From positions 1-23,827 of IMG/VR virus record IMGVR_UViG_3300030328_003764: DNA of 23,827 nucleotides. The stretch is one strand, 5' to 3'. The translations under genes and the position numbers were made by a program. The DNA is from a virus. How positions within the stretch are numbered: the stretch's first letter is position 1; each line of letters opens with the position of its first letter. A model generated the notes under the pieces. The model had not been told where the DNA came from. It was given only the letters and a program-made list of their open reading frames with translations, and did no database searches. Below, one piece after another: positions 5,860 to 10,176 of this stretch.

Positions 5860-6126
5860 ATGACATTCAAGATTGACATTGATACTGAAGGAAAATTGCA
5901 GAAGCCAGTAAGAAAAATGCTGGCGACTGAGGTGCCCGAAGATGTGCTGGCTATGCTGAATGATTACCTTGATAAGACTAATCTTAGAAAGGTGGAAGTT
6001 GTTCGGCAAATGGTTTTGTTTTGCTTGCGAGATTTGGGGTACTCGGGAGCGGAACAATACATTAAACCTCTCGCTCCCAAATCAAACATGAATTGGGGAA
6101 GAGGTAAGGAACAGAGATCTGATTAG
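5860..6126 (+). CDS. ribbon-helix-helix-like DNA-binding protein
   Basis: An 88-residue protein with a strand-helix-helix pattern: a short strand MLATEVPEDV (approx. residues 20-29), helix LAMLNDYLDKTNLR and a second helix KVEVVRQMVLFCLRDLGY (to residue 61). This matches the layout of ribbon-helix-helix (Arc/CopG/MetJ-type) repressors, which dimerise and read DNA with the paired strand; the N-terminus and C-terminus are charged extensions. The start is an ATG with AGAGGTGA upstream. It lies between a terminator and the large swivel-protein gene, which suggests it regulates its own operon or neighbours. RHH proteins such as the plasmid omega repressor bind runs of 7-bp sites, so the TGTTACA heptads at 9.3-9.6 kb and 4138 are natural candidate targets. 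The fold assignment is from pattern only; no helix-turn-helix repressor is visible elsewhere in the window. Confidence 0.65.
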   Translation: MTFKIDIDTEGKLQKPVRKMLATEVPEDVLAMLNDYLDKTNLRKVEVVRQMVLFCLRDLGYSGAEQYIKPLAPKSNMNWGRGKEQRSD

Positions 6127-6144
6127 AATGATGAGGGAAGCGCC

Positions 6145-6200
6145 GCCCTCCCCCCGCGACTCGCGAGCGAGGGGAGGGCAGCCCTCCCCCCCTCAAGCAT
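6145..6200 (+). other. C-rich hairpin between the RHH gene and the swivel gene
   Basis: GCCCTCCCC (6145-6153) pairs with GGGGAGGGC (6171-6179) around a 17-nt loop with the palindrome CTCGCGAG. The same 9-bp stem forms the terminator at 4842. A second C-run (6181-6193) follows. No T-run, so termination is doubtful; an RNA structure that lowers read-through or protects the 3' end is possible. The minus strand carries G-runs that might fold. Confidence 0.5.
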
Positions 6201-6219: not shown

Positions 6220-8481
6220 ATGACTGATGTAGTTAGGACACAGAAAGCAAGAAGCGTTCAATCTGTTTCGGATTGGGTGAACAGTACAAGTGGCATGAGC
6301 ATGCACTTGGATGTGCCTGCCTTTTGGCTTATCCAATCTAGGCCAGGGTCAGCTGATAATTATCCGAGTTGGGTAAGCGAATACTTTAGAGAGTGTGAAG
6401 AAATCAGTGACCCCAATCCTCATCACACTCATAATAAGCCTGTCTTTGCACGTTGCTGTCCTGTTAATCCAGCTCATGGATTTGAGGACAGCATTATTGT
6501 TAAGTCTCGTCTTGAGCTGCGTAATCTTTGGGACAAGATGATCGAGACAGATCCCAATGGTGAGATACTTCTCATGCAGTATGTCAGCTCAACTTCAAGC
6601 TCTATCATTACACCATACACATTGACTGTAGGTAAGGGCCATGACGGTGCAACTAATGGAGACGATCCTCTTACTCTAGCTTACGATTCAACTACGAGTG
6701 ATGGATTGCTTAACGATAGTTGGGGTGACTTGGCTAGTCAGTCGGGCGTTGGTAATGATGGTGACTGGAAGCCATCTGATCCTGATGCGAAGCATCCTTT
6801 TCTTGAGATTGTTTGCAATAGGCATCGCATGTTTCATATGCACGATCATGCCGAGGCCTTTGGCATGGGGAACAATAATCTTAGAAGGGACAATCGTAAT
6901 TGGATTGTTCAGTGCCGCAAGGGTGAACATGTTCAATCAGGGATGAAGGACTTTGTACCCAAGGACTTTGAAGTAAAGAAAGTTATTTATCCTACTGGAA
7001 AAGAAACTCTTATTGAGTGGCGAGACAGGATGGCCAAGGTCAGTCAGGATAGCGATGGCTCAGGTGTAGCTGTCTATCACCACAAGGGAGCTATCACTTC
7101 CCATTGGGGTATCAATTGTATGGAGTATAACATCCCATACTTTACAACCTATGAGCCATCGATAGGAAACAAGATTAGGGCGAAGGACTTTATTCAATCT
7201 AGCTACGAGCATATTGATTCGGAAGTTGTTGACGGTATCTGGTTGGCTACTGTTAATAATGAAAACGATCCTGTTCATGGAGTACATACTCCTTCTACTG
7301 TTACATATCCCGAAGCTGTAGACATGATGCTCTTTGGTCTGCACAACTATCGTCTTCAGTCACCAAGGGTGGGCAGTAGGTTGCTCGGCCTAGCTATTGG
7401 ATCGGCCATGCGTCTTCTTCAAGCAGCTTGCTTGGGTGAGCTAAGACATAACAAGAAGACTGGTTTGTCTAGACAGCAGATCTTCCAAGCATCTTGGACT
7501 GACTATCTTTACGGACAGAAGAAGATGATCAAGGCATGGCGAGCATTTAGAGATGAGTCGTGGTCGTCAGGCTATGGAGGTCATGCTTGGGCTGAGTGTG
7601 CATCGAGCCAGCTTGAGATGCACATGATCTCTGAAACTTATGCCAAGTACCATGGTACTGCTAACTATAAATCTCTTGTTGATGCGTTCAACATCGCAGT
7701 TAATAGAGCGCACAATAATGGATGGGTCTTCAATAAGTTTGCAGATAGAGGTGTCTTCGATGCAGCTGCTGAATCTAATGTTAGGTTTGCTGCTGAATGT
7801 ACTTCAGTCCTTAATCATTACGGCAAGTTTATTTCTGAAGGCAAGGCAGCCTTGTCCAATACGGTTCTTGGTACTGCTTTTGTTTCGCATAGACGTAACT
7901 GGAAAAAGCAAAGACCAAACAAACTGAATGTTCAGTTGGCCTATGATGCCAAGATGAATAAGCATGTACTTGTTGATCTTGATTACCTGAAGAACATTGG
8001 AAGTGATGTCGCTACTTACTTGACGAGTCTTCATCCAGGACCTCCCAAGTTCATGGTACTTCTTAACCTAAGAACACTCTCGAACAAGAGAGTTAATACT
8101 GTTCATCATGTAATCCATATTCAATATGGGCAATACGATTCACAGAAAACTGATAGGCCTACTCAGTACGGCAAGATTGATGTACCTATTAACAACAGTG
8201 ATGCCGGTAATTCTTTGGTTGAAAAGATTCAACTTAACTTAGACTCAGATGACTGTGAGTATGTGAAGAGCATGGCCGGTACTCATACTGTCTATGCCGT
8301 AGGCCACGTTTATCCGTATGCTCATTCGGGAACTTATGTCCTTAAATGTCAAGACCCTAATGACACAAACACTAGGTTTACAATAGGGACAATCGATGAC
8401 CCTGATTTTCACAGGGCATACACCAAATGGAAAGAGGAGGAGCAAGCATATGTCGCGCAGGAAGAAGAAGAAAAAGAATAA
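6220..8481 (+). CDS. phosphohistidine swivel (PEP-synthase-like) protein, 753 aa
   Basis: The ATG has AAAGGAGA at ideal spacing. Residues about 281-310 read as a divergent PEP-utilising mobile domain: SGVAVYHHKGAITSHWGINC followed by MEYNIPYFTT. In PEP synthase, PPDK and rifampin phosphotransferase the equivalent segment has (T/S)xHAAI...E.GIP, with the His carrying the phosphate; here His295 is in place. Just upstream NWIVQCRKGEH (227-237) matches the 'VQaRP' strand that ends the ATP-binding part of those enzymes, and a second such motif, FWLIQSRPGS, lies at 35-44. Residues 113-140 (NGEILLMQYVSS...) could be a remnant of the ATP-grasp core. I see no PEP/pyruvate-binding barrel: the C-terminal 380 residues are a helical region (SWSSGYGGHAWAE near 448) and then a beta-rich part of unknown type. 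It overlaps a phosphatase gene. AT-richer than the replication genes. Likely transfers phosphate from ATP to an unknown acceptor, by inference. Confidence 0.72.
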   Translation: MTDVVRTQKARSVQSVSDWVNSTSGMSMHLDVPAFWLIQSRPGSADNYPSWVSEYFRECEEISDPNPHHTHNKPVFARCCPVNPAHGFEDSIIVKSRLELRNLWDKMIETDPNGEILLMQYVSSTSSSIITPYTLTVGKGHDGATNGDDPLTLAYDSTTSDGLLNDSWGDLASQSGVGNDGDWKPSDPDAKHPFLEIVCNRHRMFHMHDHAEAFGMGNNNLRRDNRNWIVQCRKGEHVQSGMKDFVPKDFEVKKVIYPTGKETLIEWRDRMAKVSQDSDGSGVAVYHHKGAITSHWGINCMEYNIPYFTTYEPSIGNKIRAKDFIQSSYEHIDSEVVDGIWLATVNNENDPVHGVHTPSTVTYPEAVDMMLFGLHNYRLQSPRVGSRLLGLAIGSAMRLLQAACLGELRHNKKTGLSRQQIFQASWTDYLYGQKKMIKAWRAFRDESWSSGYGGHAWAECASSQLEMHMISETYAKYHGTANYKSLVDAFNIAVNRAHNNGWVFNKFADRGVFDAAAESNVRFAAECTSVLNHYGKFISEGKAALSNTVLGTAFVSHRRNWKKQRPNKLNVQLAYDAKMNKHVLVDLDYLKNIGSDVATYLTSLHPGPPKFMVLLNLRTLSNKRVNTVHHVIHIQYGQYDSQKTDRPTQYGKIDVPINNSDAGNSLVEKIQLNLDSDDCEYVKSMAGTHTVYAVGHVYPYAHSGTYVLKCQDPNDTNTRFTIGTIDDPDFHRAYTKWKEEEQAYVAQEEEEKE

Positions 8482-9328
8482 TGGACAGGAGTCTACTATT
8501 AATTACCCAACACCCGATGAGCTTGAGGCCAGGGGTGAGAGTCAGTGCGTTAGCTTCCTAACACAGAATGGATTTGCTGACATGCTGGACTACGAAGACT
8601 GGTATGATCAGATGAATCCGGATTGGGATGTTAAAGAGGAGGATGACATGAAAGATTGGTTTGGAAGTGGTGGGACAAATGATACGCCCACCTCTTTGAC
8701 TAAGTTTAAAAACAATTCAACTACATACAAGGCACCATCTACTGGTAAGCAGGGGACCCTGTATCCAGGCACAAGCTATGTATCCAAGAAGTCTTGTCCG
8801 ACTCACGACGGAACTCAGATTGTATTCCGCCGGGGTAACGACAAGTTTATGAAGGAGGTTGCCGGGGCACAGGGCGCACATGTTCTAGTTGAACCCGAGC
8901 TTAAGTTGGTCATTGATCTCGCAGGTATGTTCCATCCTCCCGAGCCAGACACACTTAAGTTTACACCGGGCACGAACGACTGCGCTTACCAAGATAAGAT
9001 GGATCAGCTCTCATCCCATCTGTATCAGCCAGCTGTTCTGGATATTAAATGGCAGGACATGGGTGTTCCTCCATTGGACTTCCCTTTCTGGAAAGATCTT
9101 TGGTCGATCCTCCCTAATGGACGTACAGTTGTATGCTGCTTTGGTGGTCATGGCAGAACGGGCACAGCTCTCGCTTGTCTGTTGATGGCAGCTGACAAGA
9201 GTATCACTGCCGAGAAAGCCACGGCAGTTATCCACACCAAGCACTGTGAAAATGCAATCGAAAGCTCAAGCCAGGAGAAGTACCTCAAGAAGATCCAAGC
9301 TCAGAGAGATGAGATGCTTGCAGCCTGA
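8450..9328 (+). CDS. Cys-X5-Arg (PTP/DSP-like) phosphatase
   Basis: A 292-residue protein starting at an ATG inside the 3' end of the swivel gene (32-nt overlap) with AAAGAGGAGG upstream. The active-site loop is VVCCFGGHGRTG (approx. residues 227-238), a full C-x5-R-T/S-G signature with nucleophile Cys230 and Arg236. WQDMGVPPLDFPFW (201-214) is placed as the general-acid loop would be, with Asp203 or Asp210. The N-terminus is a Lys tract (MSRRKKKKK) and an acidic, low-complexity stretch to about residue 100, so the catalytic domain is the C-terminal half. Tight coupling to the swivel protein suggests that it removes or controls the phosphate that the partner adds, or that both act on one nucleotide or protein substrate. 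Could be protein-, lipid- or RNA 5'-phosphatase; the substrate cannot be told from sequence. Confidence 0.85.
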   Translation: MSRRKKKKKNNGQESTINYPTPDELEARGESQCVSFLTQNGFADMLDYEDWYDQMNPDWDVKEEDDMKDWFGSGGTNDTPTSLTKFKNNSTTYKAPSTGKQGTLYPGTSYVSKKSCPTHDGTQIVFRRGNDKFMKEVAGAQGAHVLVEPELKLVIDLAGMFHPPEPDTLKFTPGTNDCAYQDKMDQLSSHLYQPAVLDIKWQDMGVPPLDFPFWKDLWSILPNGRTVVCCFGGHGRTGTALACLLMAADKSITAEKATAVIHTKHCENAIESSSQEKYLKKIQAQRDEMLAA

Positions 9329-9331
9329 CCC

Positions 9332-9638
9332 TGTTACACCTGTTACATGTTACAGGTCACATCGACATATAAGCCAGAGAGGTGGGGCTACCCCCTCTTC
9401 TATAGTATAATAATAATATTAATATAGAAGATTATATGTAACATGTAACAGAACAGGAATAACTCCCATGGCTACTACGCTTTTCCTGTTACACCTACCA
9501 CTACCACTACCTGTAACATCTGTAACATCATATCAATATACCTAGTATAAACATGTACTTACATACATGTGTTTTATTCCTGTGTTACACGTTACACCCA
9601 CACCAAACACTATCCCGTTACATGTGTTACATGTAACA
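9332..9638. repeat. TGTTACA/TGTAACA heptad array
   Basis: The units point both ways, in direct, inverted and abutting arrangement, unlike a CRISPR (no spacers of constant length). Chance would give about three copies in the whole window; eleven fall in about 310 bp here. Confidence 0.9.
9397..9430. other. AT-only segment within an inverted repeat
   Basis: CTTCTATA (9397-9404) and TATAGAAG (9423-9430) flank 18 bases that are A or T except one G. It lies between heptads at 9348 and 9437 and could be the easily melted part of a replication origin. Confidence 0.5.
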
Positions 9639-9660
9639 TAACCAAACTTTGGAGAAACCA

Positions 9661-10176
9661 ATGACTAAAGAAGAAGATATTAACCTGACCCCTATCAAAA
9701 TGTTACAGGTATCGCTGCTCCCTATGCCCGGTGATTCCAATTCATGGCGCGCTCATTTCCAATACGGAACCCGTGGCATGAAGGAGGATGGAGCATATGT
9801 TTCTCGAAGCACCTTGCTTGAAGACAGAGAGGCTGTGCTTATTACAAAAACATTCACCAATCACACACGTTCTCTTCGCCCTGGATCTGCCAGCATTTAC
9901 TTCAGCCTCAACAAACCTGGCTACATGGAGGCAGAAGATCCTGTCCTTATACATAACTGCATCGATCGCCAGACTCTCGTGTCTTATATCAGAGGTACGA
10001 TTAACCACCTCTGGCCCGAGGAACAATCCTTCCAAGAAAAGGTAGAGGAAGAACTCAAGTCCGAAGCCAGGGATGTAGCAAAGGAGATGGAAGAGATTAA
10101 TCCTGGCAGTACCTTGAACACAATCCTTGACGATCTTCTTAATGAGGGACAAAAGAAGAAAGAAACTTTCCATTAA
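9661..10176 (+). CDS. hypothetical protein downstream of the heptad array
   Basis: A 171-residue protein; the ATG has TTGGAG 7 nt upstream. No family recognised. The first part (to about residue 105) looks like a compact alpha/beta domain with RAHFQYGTRGMKEDGAYVSR and RPGSASIYFSLNKPGYMEAE; the second part (105-171) is a charged helical tail, with QEKVEEELKSEARDVAKEME suited to a coiled coil. No membrane segment. One TGTTACA heptad lies inside its coding sequence (9701-9707), so the array may extend over its start and control it. It could encode the protein that acts at the array, but no DNA-binding motif is visible. It is followed by a terminator at 10248. Confidence 0.78.
   Translation: MTKEEDINLTPIKMLQVSLLPMPGDSNSWRAHFQYGTRGMKEDGAYVSRSTLLEDREAVLITKTFTNHTRSLRPGSASIYFSLNKPGYMEAEDPVLIHNCIDRQTLVSYIRGTINHLWPEEQSFQEKVEEELKSEARDVAKEMEEINPGSTLNTILDDLLNEGQKKKETFH

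Follow-up and report, generated by a model that had tools for sequence, protein, structure and literature searches.

What would a phage do with an enzyme that carries phosphate on a histidine, if the gene overlapping it encodes a phosphatase? This question is raised by a 23.8-kb viral fragment in IMG/VR (record IMGVR_UViG_3300030328_003764; the window hereafter means this whole stretch of 23,827 nucleotides), in which gene 1 (6220..8481) encodes a 753-aa protein and gene 2 (8450..9328) a phosphatase, both genes and all of their domains and motifs lying on the plus strand. A previous reading of the letters alone, referred to here as the sequence-only reading, had described the pair as a phosphohistidine domain and a Cys-X5-Arg phosphatase that might act as writer and eraser of phosphate. 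We consider it reasonably probable that the two genes constitute a phage phosphotransfer cassette composed of a dikinase-like enzyme and a dedicated phosphatase. The pair itself is beyond chance, since His295 of the gene 1 protein is invariant in 17/17 relatives from viral contigs and phages and a phosphatase gene comes next in 18/18 loci.

The two proteins of the gene pair

Both open reading frames (ORFs) are present as first described, and so are the motifs QCRKGEH (Q231-H237), GAITSHWGI (with His295) and CFGGHGRTG. The frame of gene 2 is open from 8396, which gives the longest ORF. As an AGGAGG at 8435..8440, within gene 1, sits nine bases upstream of the ATG at 8450 and would provide the ribosome-binding site, translation likely starts at 8450, yielding a protein of 292 aa and an exact 32-nt overlap with gene 1.

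Direct scans of the gene 1 protein against Pfam, PHROG, NCBIfam and PADLOC returned nothing useful; it has no Pfam match at all and falls below Pfam detection for PPDK_N. A structural model was generated with AlphaFold using an alignment that included 16 relatives, in which model confidence (pLDDT) is ~80-92 across most of the first two domains. The best structural matches of aa 1-320 were rifampin phosphotransferase (RPH; 5hv3, Z 14.3, 254 residues, 4.5 A) and pyruvate phosphate dikinase (PPDK; 1dik, Z 13.2, 249 residues), each matched over both ATP-grasp and swivel domain, compared with Z <=10.5 for ATP-grasp proteins outside PPDK/RPH. Residues K9, R78, E115, E196, Q231 and R233 are, like H295, invariant in all 17 relatives, and K, R, E, Q, R and H occur in the same order, invariant wherever ungapped (the His in 60/60), across 60 PPDK-like proteins of the split loci described below. 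Judging from the model, aa 1-240 (6220..6939) are a divergent PPDK/RPH-type ATP-grasp donor domain, which the sequence-only reading had overlooked. The following swivel (phosphohistidine) domain spans aa 241-325 (6940..7194); for aa 241-320, including the stretch around 281-315 where the fold had first been placed, the pLDDT is ~83-92 in almost every block of the model, which here resembles the swivel domains of RPH and PPDK. An hhalign alignment of the domain to the swivel of phage PPDK was weak (probability 40%, E 2.9e-4). His295 (codon 7102..7104), the predicted phosphorylated residue, is aligned with the PPDK His (A3). The modelled fold and the invariant residues thus back a swivel phosphohistidine domain, but not a lone one: because the ATP-grasp donor and a helical domain complete the enzyme, gene 1 is better regarded as a predicted dikinase-type phosphotransferase.

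This helical domain, named HEL here (aa 330-545, 7207..7854), contains the motifs ExRH, GGxxW and HN(N/G)G..NK and is the proposed acceptor-binding part of the protein. It is homologous to a family of stand-alone HEL proteins (hhalign probability 97%, E 4e-11 and 2e-12), and a profile of the fused form (A6) detects HEL in 7/7 split genomes. The stand-alone HEL was modelled as all-helical with a pLDDT of 94.5. Its fold cannot be named because searches of the PDB gave no match (none by Foldseek below E 1; best VIA Z 4.3), a result that does not exclude the RIF-binding (arm/apex) fold of RPH. Ten HEL residues, E87, R89, H90, G157, G158, W161, H190, N191, K198 and Q217, are invariant in 70/70 sequences; since they sit at the ends of several helices in the model, they may form a pocket.

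The remaining C-terminal region (aa 600-753, 8017..8478) is beta-rich by the secondary structure of the model, which has low confidence there, and has no profile match. Homology between this region and a downstream 'nprot' family was not supported. A beta-rich ORF at 9649-10176 resembles the region by eye and may be a paralogous domain, and an ORF similar to it follows the phosphatase gene in another locus (L095).

The gene 2 protein matches Pfam PTP-SAK (1.1e-6, 29.2 bits, cut-off 27), and the profile of its family matches solved protein tyrosine phosphatases (PTPs) and dual-specificity phosphatases (DSPs), the best at 8e-11. The catalytic P-loop CFGGHGR (9137..9157) and the general-acid Asp (codon 9056..9058; WQD here, WPD or W-x-D in relatives) are intact, with C248, R254 and D221 invariant in 18/18 sequences. 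By these sequence features, which bear out the phosphatase assigned earlier, gene 2 encodes a PTP/DSP phosphatase with its predicted active-site residues in place. It shares with other PTP/DSP cysteine phosphatases (Pfam PTP-SAK, Tc-R-P) the Cys-x5-Arg loop, the W-x-D general acid and the family match, whereas its family differs from them in having a CxGGHGRTG loop followed by an HCxxA(I/V)E motif, and in that its close relatives occur only beside HEL in the searched phage collection.

Fused and split forms of the cassette

A single-sequence scan of viral contigs with the gene 1 protein found no relative, and a comparison with 50,697 phage records gave one weak match, to four near-identical Manatee Spring podoviruses whose 569-aa protein is collinear with gene 1 (BLASTP 4e-18, 510 columns); there, too, the next gene encodes a phosphatase and overlaps the first. 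A two-sequence profile scan of viral contigs did recover fused relatives, so that the fused set comprises 16 viral-contig loci from profile scans, the window and the Manatee group (18 loci). These range from a 41-kb podovirus to a 448-kb contig and are otherwise dissimilar, no other gene family being common to more than 5/18 loci; a minus-strand ORF cluster seen in 11 of them is an antisense shadow inside the fused gene and was rejected as a shared neighbour. The phosphatase gene mostly overlaps the fused gene or lies a few bases from it, the two being adjacent in every locus found, and the divergence of gene 1 is correlated with that of gene 2 (r 0.70, Mantel p 1e-4). The partnership, which had been proposed from the overlap, is therefore backed by synteny and correlated divergence. 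In two fused proteins (L098:6981-10226 and L103:7158-9725), N-terminal hexapeptide-like repeats and C-terminal Cys-rich repeats were observed. Two further fused cassettes are followed downstream by ORFs with a GCxGGRHRSV motif (L096:12555-13139 and L100:11342-11899), which may recall the C-terminal domain of RapZ.

The same parts also exist as separate genes. The window phosphatase matched Rhizobium phages in the search of phage records, and in Rhizobium phage RHph_Y1_11 the genes for a 'pyruvate phosphate dikinase', a phosphatase, a hypothetical protein and a second phosphatase lie side by side, the hypothetical protein having YGGxxW and HNNGxxFNK, as in the C-terminal half of the gene 1 protein. 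HEL profile scans found 80 viral-contig loci, 40 phage records and 7 contigs from bacterial genomes or metagenome-assembled genomes; it is the split cassette that occurs in these bacterial contigs. For the fused family, no relative was found in the genomes of 84,980 species of bacteria and archaea. Split loci show a fixed gene order on one strand: PPDK-like, CsrA-like, PTP1, HEL, PTP2 and one unknown gene. Among the 46 distinct split viral loci with enough flank, the PPDK-like gene, the PTP before HEL, the PTP after HEL and the further unknown gene are each present in 46/46 and the CsrA-like gene in 44/46, these counts, like those of the fused loci, being conditional on how the loci were found. 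The reverse also holds: wherever a phage record contains a close relative of the Rhizobium phosphatase (22 records), HEL or the fused protein is present as well, a count subject to the same condition. Cultured phages with cassette proteins infect Vibrio, Stenotrophomonas, Rhizobium and Rhodobacter; in RcZahn, a phage of Rhodobacter capsulatus, the split genes are numbers 6, 9, 10 and 11. The CsrA-like gene (for example L006:6828-7301, PF02599 2.6e-6), located between the PPDK-like gene and PTP1, was not seen in the fused form. As for the ancestry of the window phosphatase, 13/18 fused-form PTPs score higher with PTP2 than with PTP1, often by small margins, and their CxGGHGRT P-loop likewise favours PTP2.

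Split PPDK-like proteins match PPDK_N (7/7, Pfam) and the PEP-utilisers mobile domain. The TIM barrel that handles phosphoenolpyruvate (PEP) and pyruvate was not found with PF02896 in 7/7 split or 17 fused proteins, and the match to TIGR01828, the PPDK equivalog, is limited to residues 10-531 of 865, with a score of 541 against a cut-off of 843. Not every phage PPDK belongs to the cassette: gp139 of Bacillus phage G, annotated as a kinase, has no such neighbours.

Proposed reaction and competing explanations

In RPH and PPDK, the His of the swivel is phosphorylated by ATP and then moves across to a second site (PMC4844700; PMC5371819). On the basis of the sequence data, gene order, conserved residues and modelled folds described above, we infer that the ATP-grasp domain of gene 1 would transfer a phosphate from ATP to His295, as its fold and invariant residues indicate, and that the swivel would pass this phosphate on to an acceptor that HEL either binds or contains, as the domain order suggests. 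Because HEL occupies the position of the TIM barrel in the fused protein, and no barrel is detected, it would take the place of that domain and may hold, or be, the acceptor of phosphate. The gene 2 phosphatase, probably translationally coupled, would act on this same product or target by removing or trimming its phosphate. Other phages have the parts of this machine as separate genes, one PPDK-like, one for HEL and two for phosphatases, mostly accompanied by a gene for a CsrA-like protein.

The closest known systems are similar only in part. RPH and the two-component small-molecule dikinases (HpeHI, CreHI and PpsAB) also have an acceptor domain that is not a TIM barrel, together with an ATP-grasp domain and a His swivel, and HpeHI provides a precedent for a split dikinase (PMC12167813). 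They differ in that the third domain here, HEL, has no recognised match, the system is phage-encoded, and a PTP-fold phosphatase is present in every locus found; in addition, the domain order here is ATP-grasp, His and HEL, whereas that of RPH is ATP-grasp, acceptor and C-terminal His. The acceptor domain of RPH binds the phosphate and the His through Arg666-Glu667 (PMC4844700), to which the invariant ExRH of HEL bears a loose resemblance only. With PPDK and PEP synthase, the gene 1 protein shares the ATP-grasp and swivel folds and the invariant K/R/E/Q/R/H, and the split form is PPDK-derived to about residue 530, but the TIM barrel is undetected and HEL and phosphatases are the partners instead. 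VadK (Rv1127c), a truncated PPDK that autophosphorylates on His without a PEP domain (PMC13400623), resembles the split phage form in this respect, while being bacterial and chromosomal, with no reported HEL or phosphatase partner. Gene 1 would be a PEP-domain-less relative of dikinases with what may be a new acceptor fold and a new phosphatase partnership; in the literature searched, no kinase-phosphatase cassette of this kind had been described for phages.

Several observations weigh against this scheme. The ATP-grasp homology has weak support in hhalign comparisons of sequence profiles of the N-terminal part (E 0.002, probability 13%), so that the assignment of the first two domains leans on structure and invariant residues, and the model of the whole protein averages a pLDDT of 70. 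HEL is without a known fold, and its acceptor role rests on position. Correlated divergence of the two genes would also be expected from simple co-inheritance. Finally, five near-identical contigs (L088-L092; L088:5936-8871, same in the others) encode HEL, with ExRY in place of ExRH, and a phosphatase, with no ATP-grasp or swivel gene detectable in these records. The donor may be encoded beyond the ends of the contigs, or else HEL and the phosphatase can act without a kinase, in which case HEL might not need the swivel. Cys-rich regions like those of the two fused proteins above occur in both L088 proteins.

What the cassette would phosphorylate admits several answers. In the boldest one, which we hold only tentatively, a His-swivel phosphorelay with a new-fold acceptor and a dedicated phosphatase would be a writer-eraser phosphosignalling unit, or one for takeover or counter-defence, that moves between unrelated phages and is unlike any described phage system. 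The writer and eraser of the sequence-only reading are plausible; they stay unproven because the L088-L092 lineage keeps HEL and the phosphatase only. Nothing in the analysis shows counter-defence or host takeover, which had also been suggested, and none of the 8 proteins compared with PADLOC had a match, an absence that proves little with a library dating from 2023.

Alternatively, and in our estimate less probably, kinase and phosphatase would be successive steps of a small-molecule or nucleotide pathway, in which a metabolite, base or nucleotide is phosphorylated and used by another activity, and the PTP dephosphorylates it or takes another intermediate. Small molecules are indeed the substrates of RPH and HpeHI, the closest characterised non-PEP relatives (PMC4844700, PMC12167813), HEL of the split loci has a different phosphatase on either side, and two Vibrio phages carry a dCTP deaminase or dUTPase gene shortly upstream; but the fused loci contain no other conserved enzyme, and there is no hint of thymine hypermodification, which was rejected as a candidate since a thymidylate-synthase homologue (dUMP-hydroxymethylase type; PF00303) was found in 0/8 phage genomes by a search that was positive in 9/14 control genomes. 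A search for the helical domain of HMUDK gave no match anywhere, controls included, and is hence uninformative.

We regard as rather unlikely a regulatory pair centred on HEL, in which HEL would be a phosphorylated target or an RNA- or protein-binding regulator whose state is set by kinase and phosphatase. HEL and phosphatase do form the minimal shared unit, as in the contigs without a detectable kinase, and CsrA-like genes accompany nearly all split cassettes; the ten invariant residues would suit a binding or active site better than a passive target, however, and HEL of the fused form sits in the position of the PPDK acceptor domain. That both proteins are degenerate enzymes retained as scaffold or virion proteins is very improbable: the PPDK similarity of the window protein is indeed below Pfam detection, but neither enzyme shows any change in its putative catalytic residues across 17-18 divergent relatives. 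Hardly credible is a metabolic auxiliary gene that interconverts PEP and pyruvate and boosts host energy metabolism, as published for the glycolytic 'PPDK' of vibriophages (PMC9229204, PMC12038007), because, in spite of the PPDK_N and mobile-domain matches of the split proteins, the PEP/pyruvate domain is missing (PF02896, TIGR01828), the overlap with PPDK 1GGO is itself stated for residues 1-527 (PMC12038007), and the tight linkage to HEL and phosphatases would be left unexplained.

Flanking sequences and public annotations

The upstream ORF (5860-6126) read at first as an RHH (ribbon-helix-helix) regulator has no significant family match. Between it and gene 1, a strong GC-rich RNA hairpin without a T-run was observed at 6129-6195 (-39.7 kcal/mol, z -3.85). 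The 'repeat array' mentioned earlier consists of TGTWACA heptamers in both orientations, 11 of which are clustered at 9332-9638, downstream of gene 2; 15 occur in the window as a whole, where 2.3 would be expected, and the window has no tandem repeats. By its sequence, the cluster could represent operator or origin iterons.

In public collections, the split proteins fall in PHROG 20946 (HEL), 18609 ('kinase') and 17568 ('thymidylate synthase'). PTP-fold phosphatases carry this last label in PHROG 17568 as well as in NC_042082 (gp080 and gp078) and NC_016567 (VPEG_00063). Since proteins so annotated match PTP/DSP models and the 8 genomes searched have no thymidylate synthase, the label is wrong for them as far as sequence comparison can tell; they are predicted phosphatases instead, and the error has apparently spread.

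These findings correct the recurring phage annotations 'PPDK' and 'thymidylate synthase'. The cassette is widespread, conserved and unstudied, and offers a directly testable pair of enzymes. Should the acceptor prove to be a protein or a defence signal, phages would have here a new means of controlling the host.

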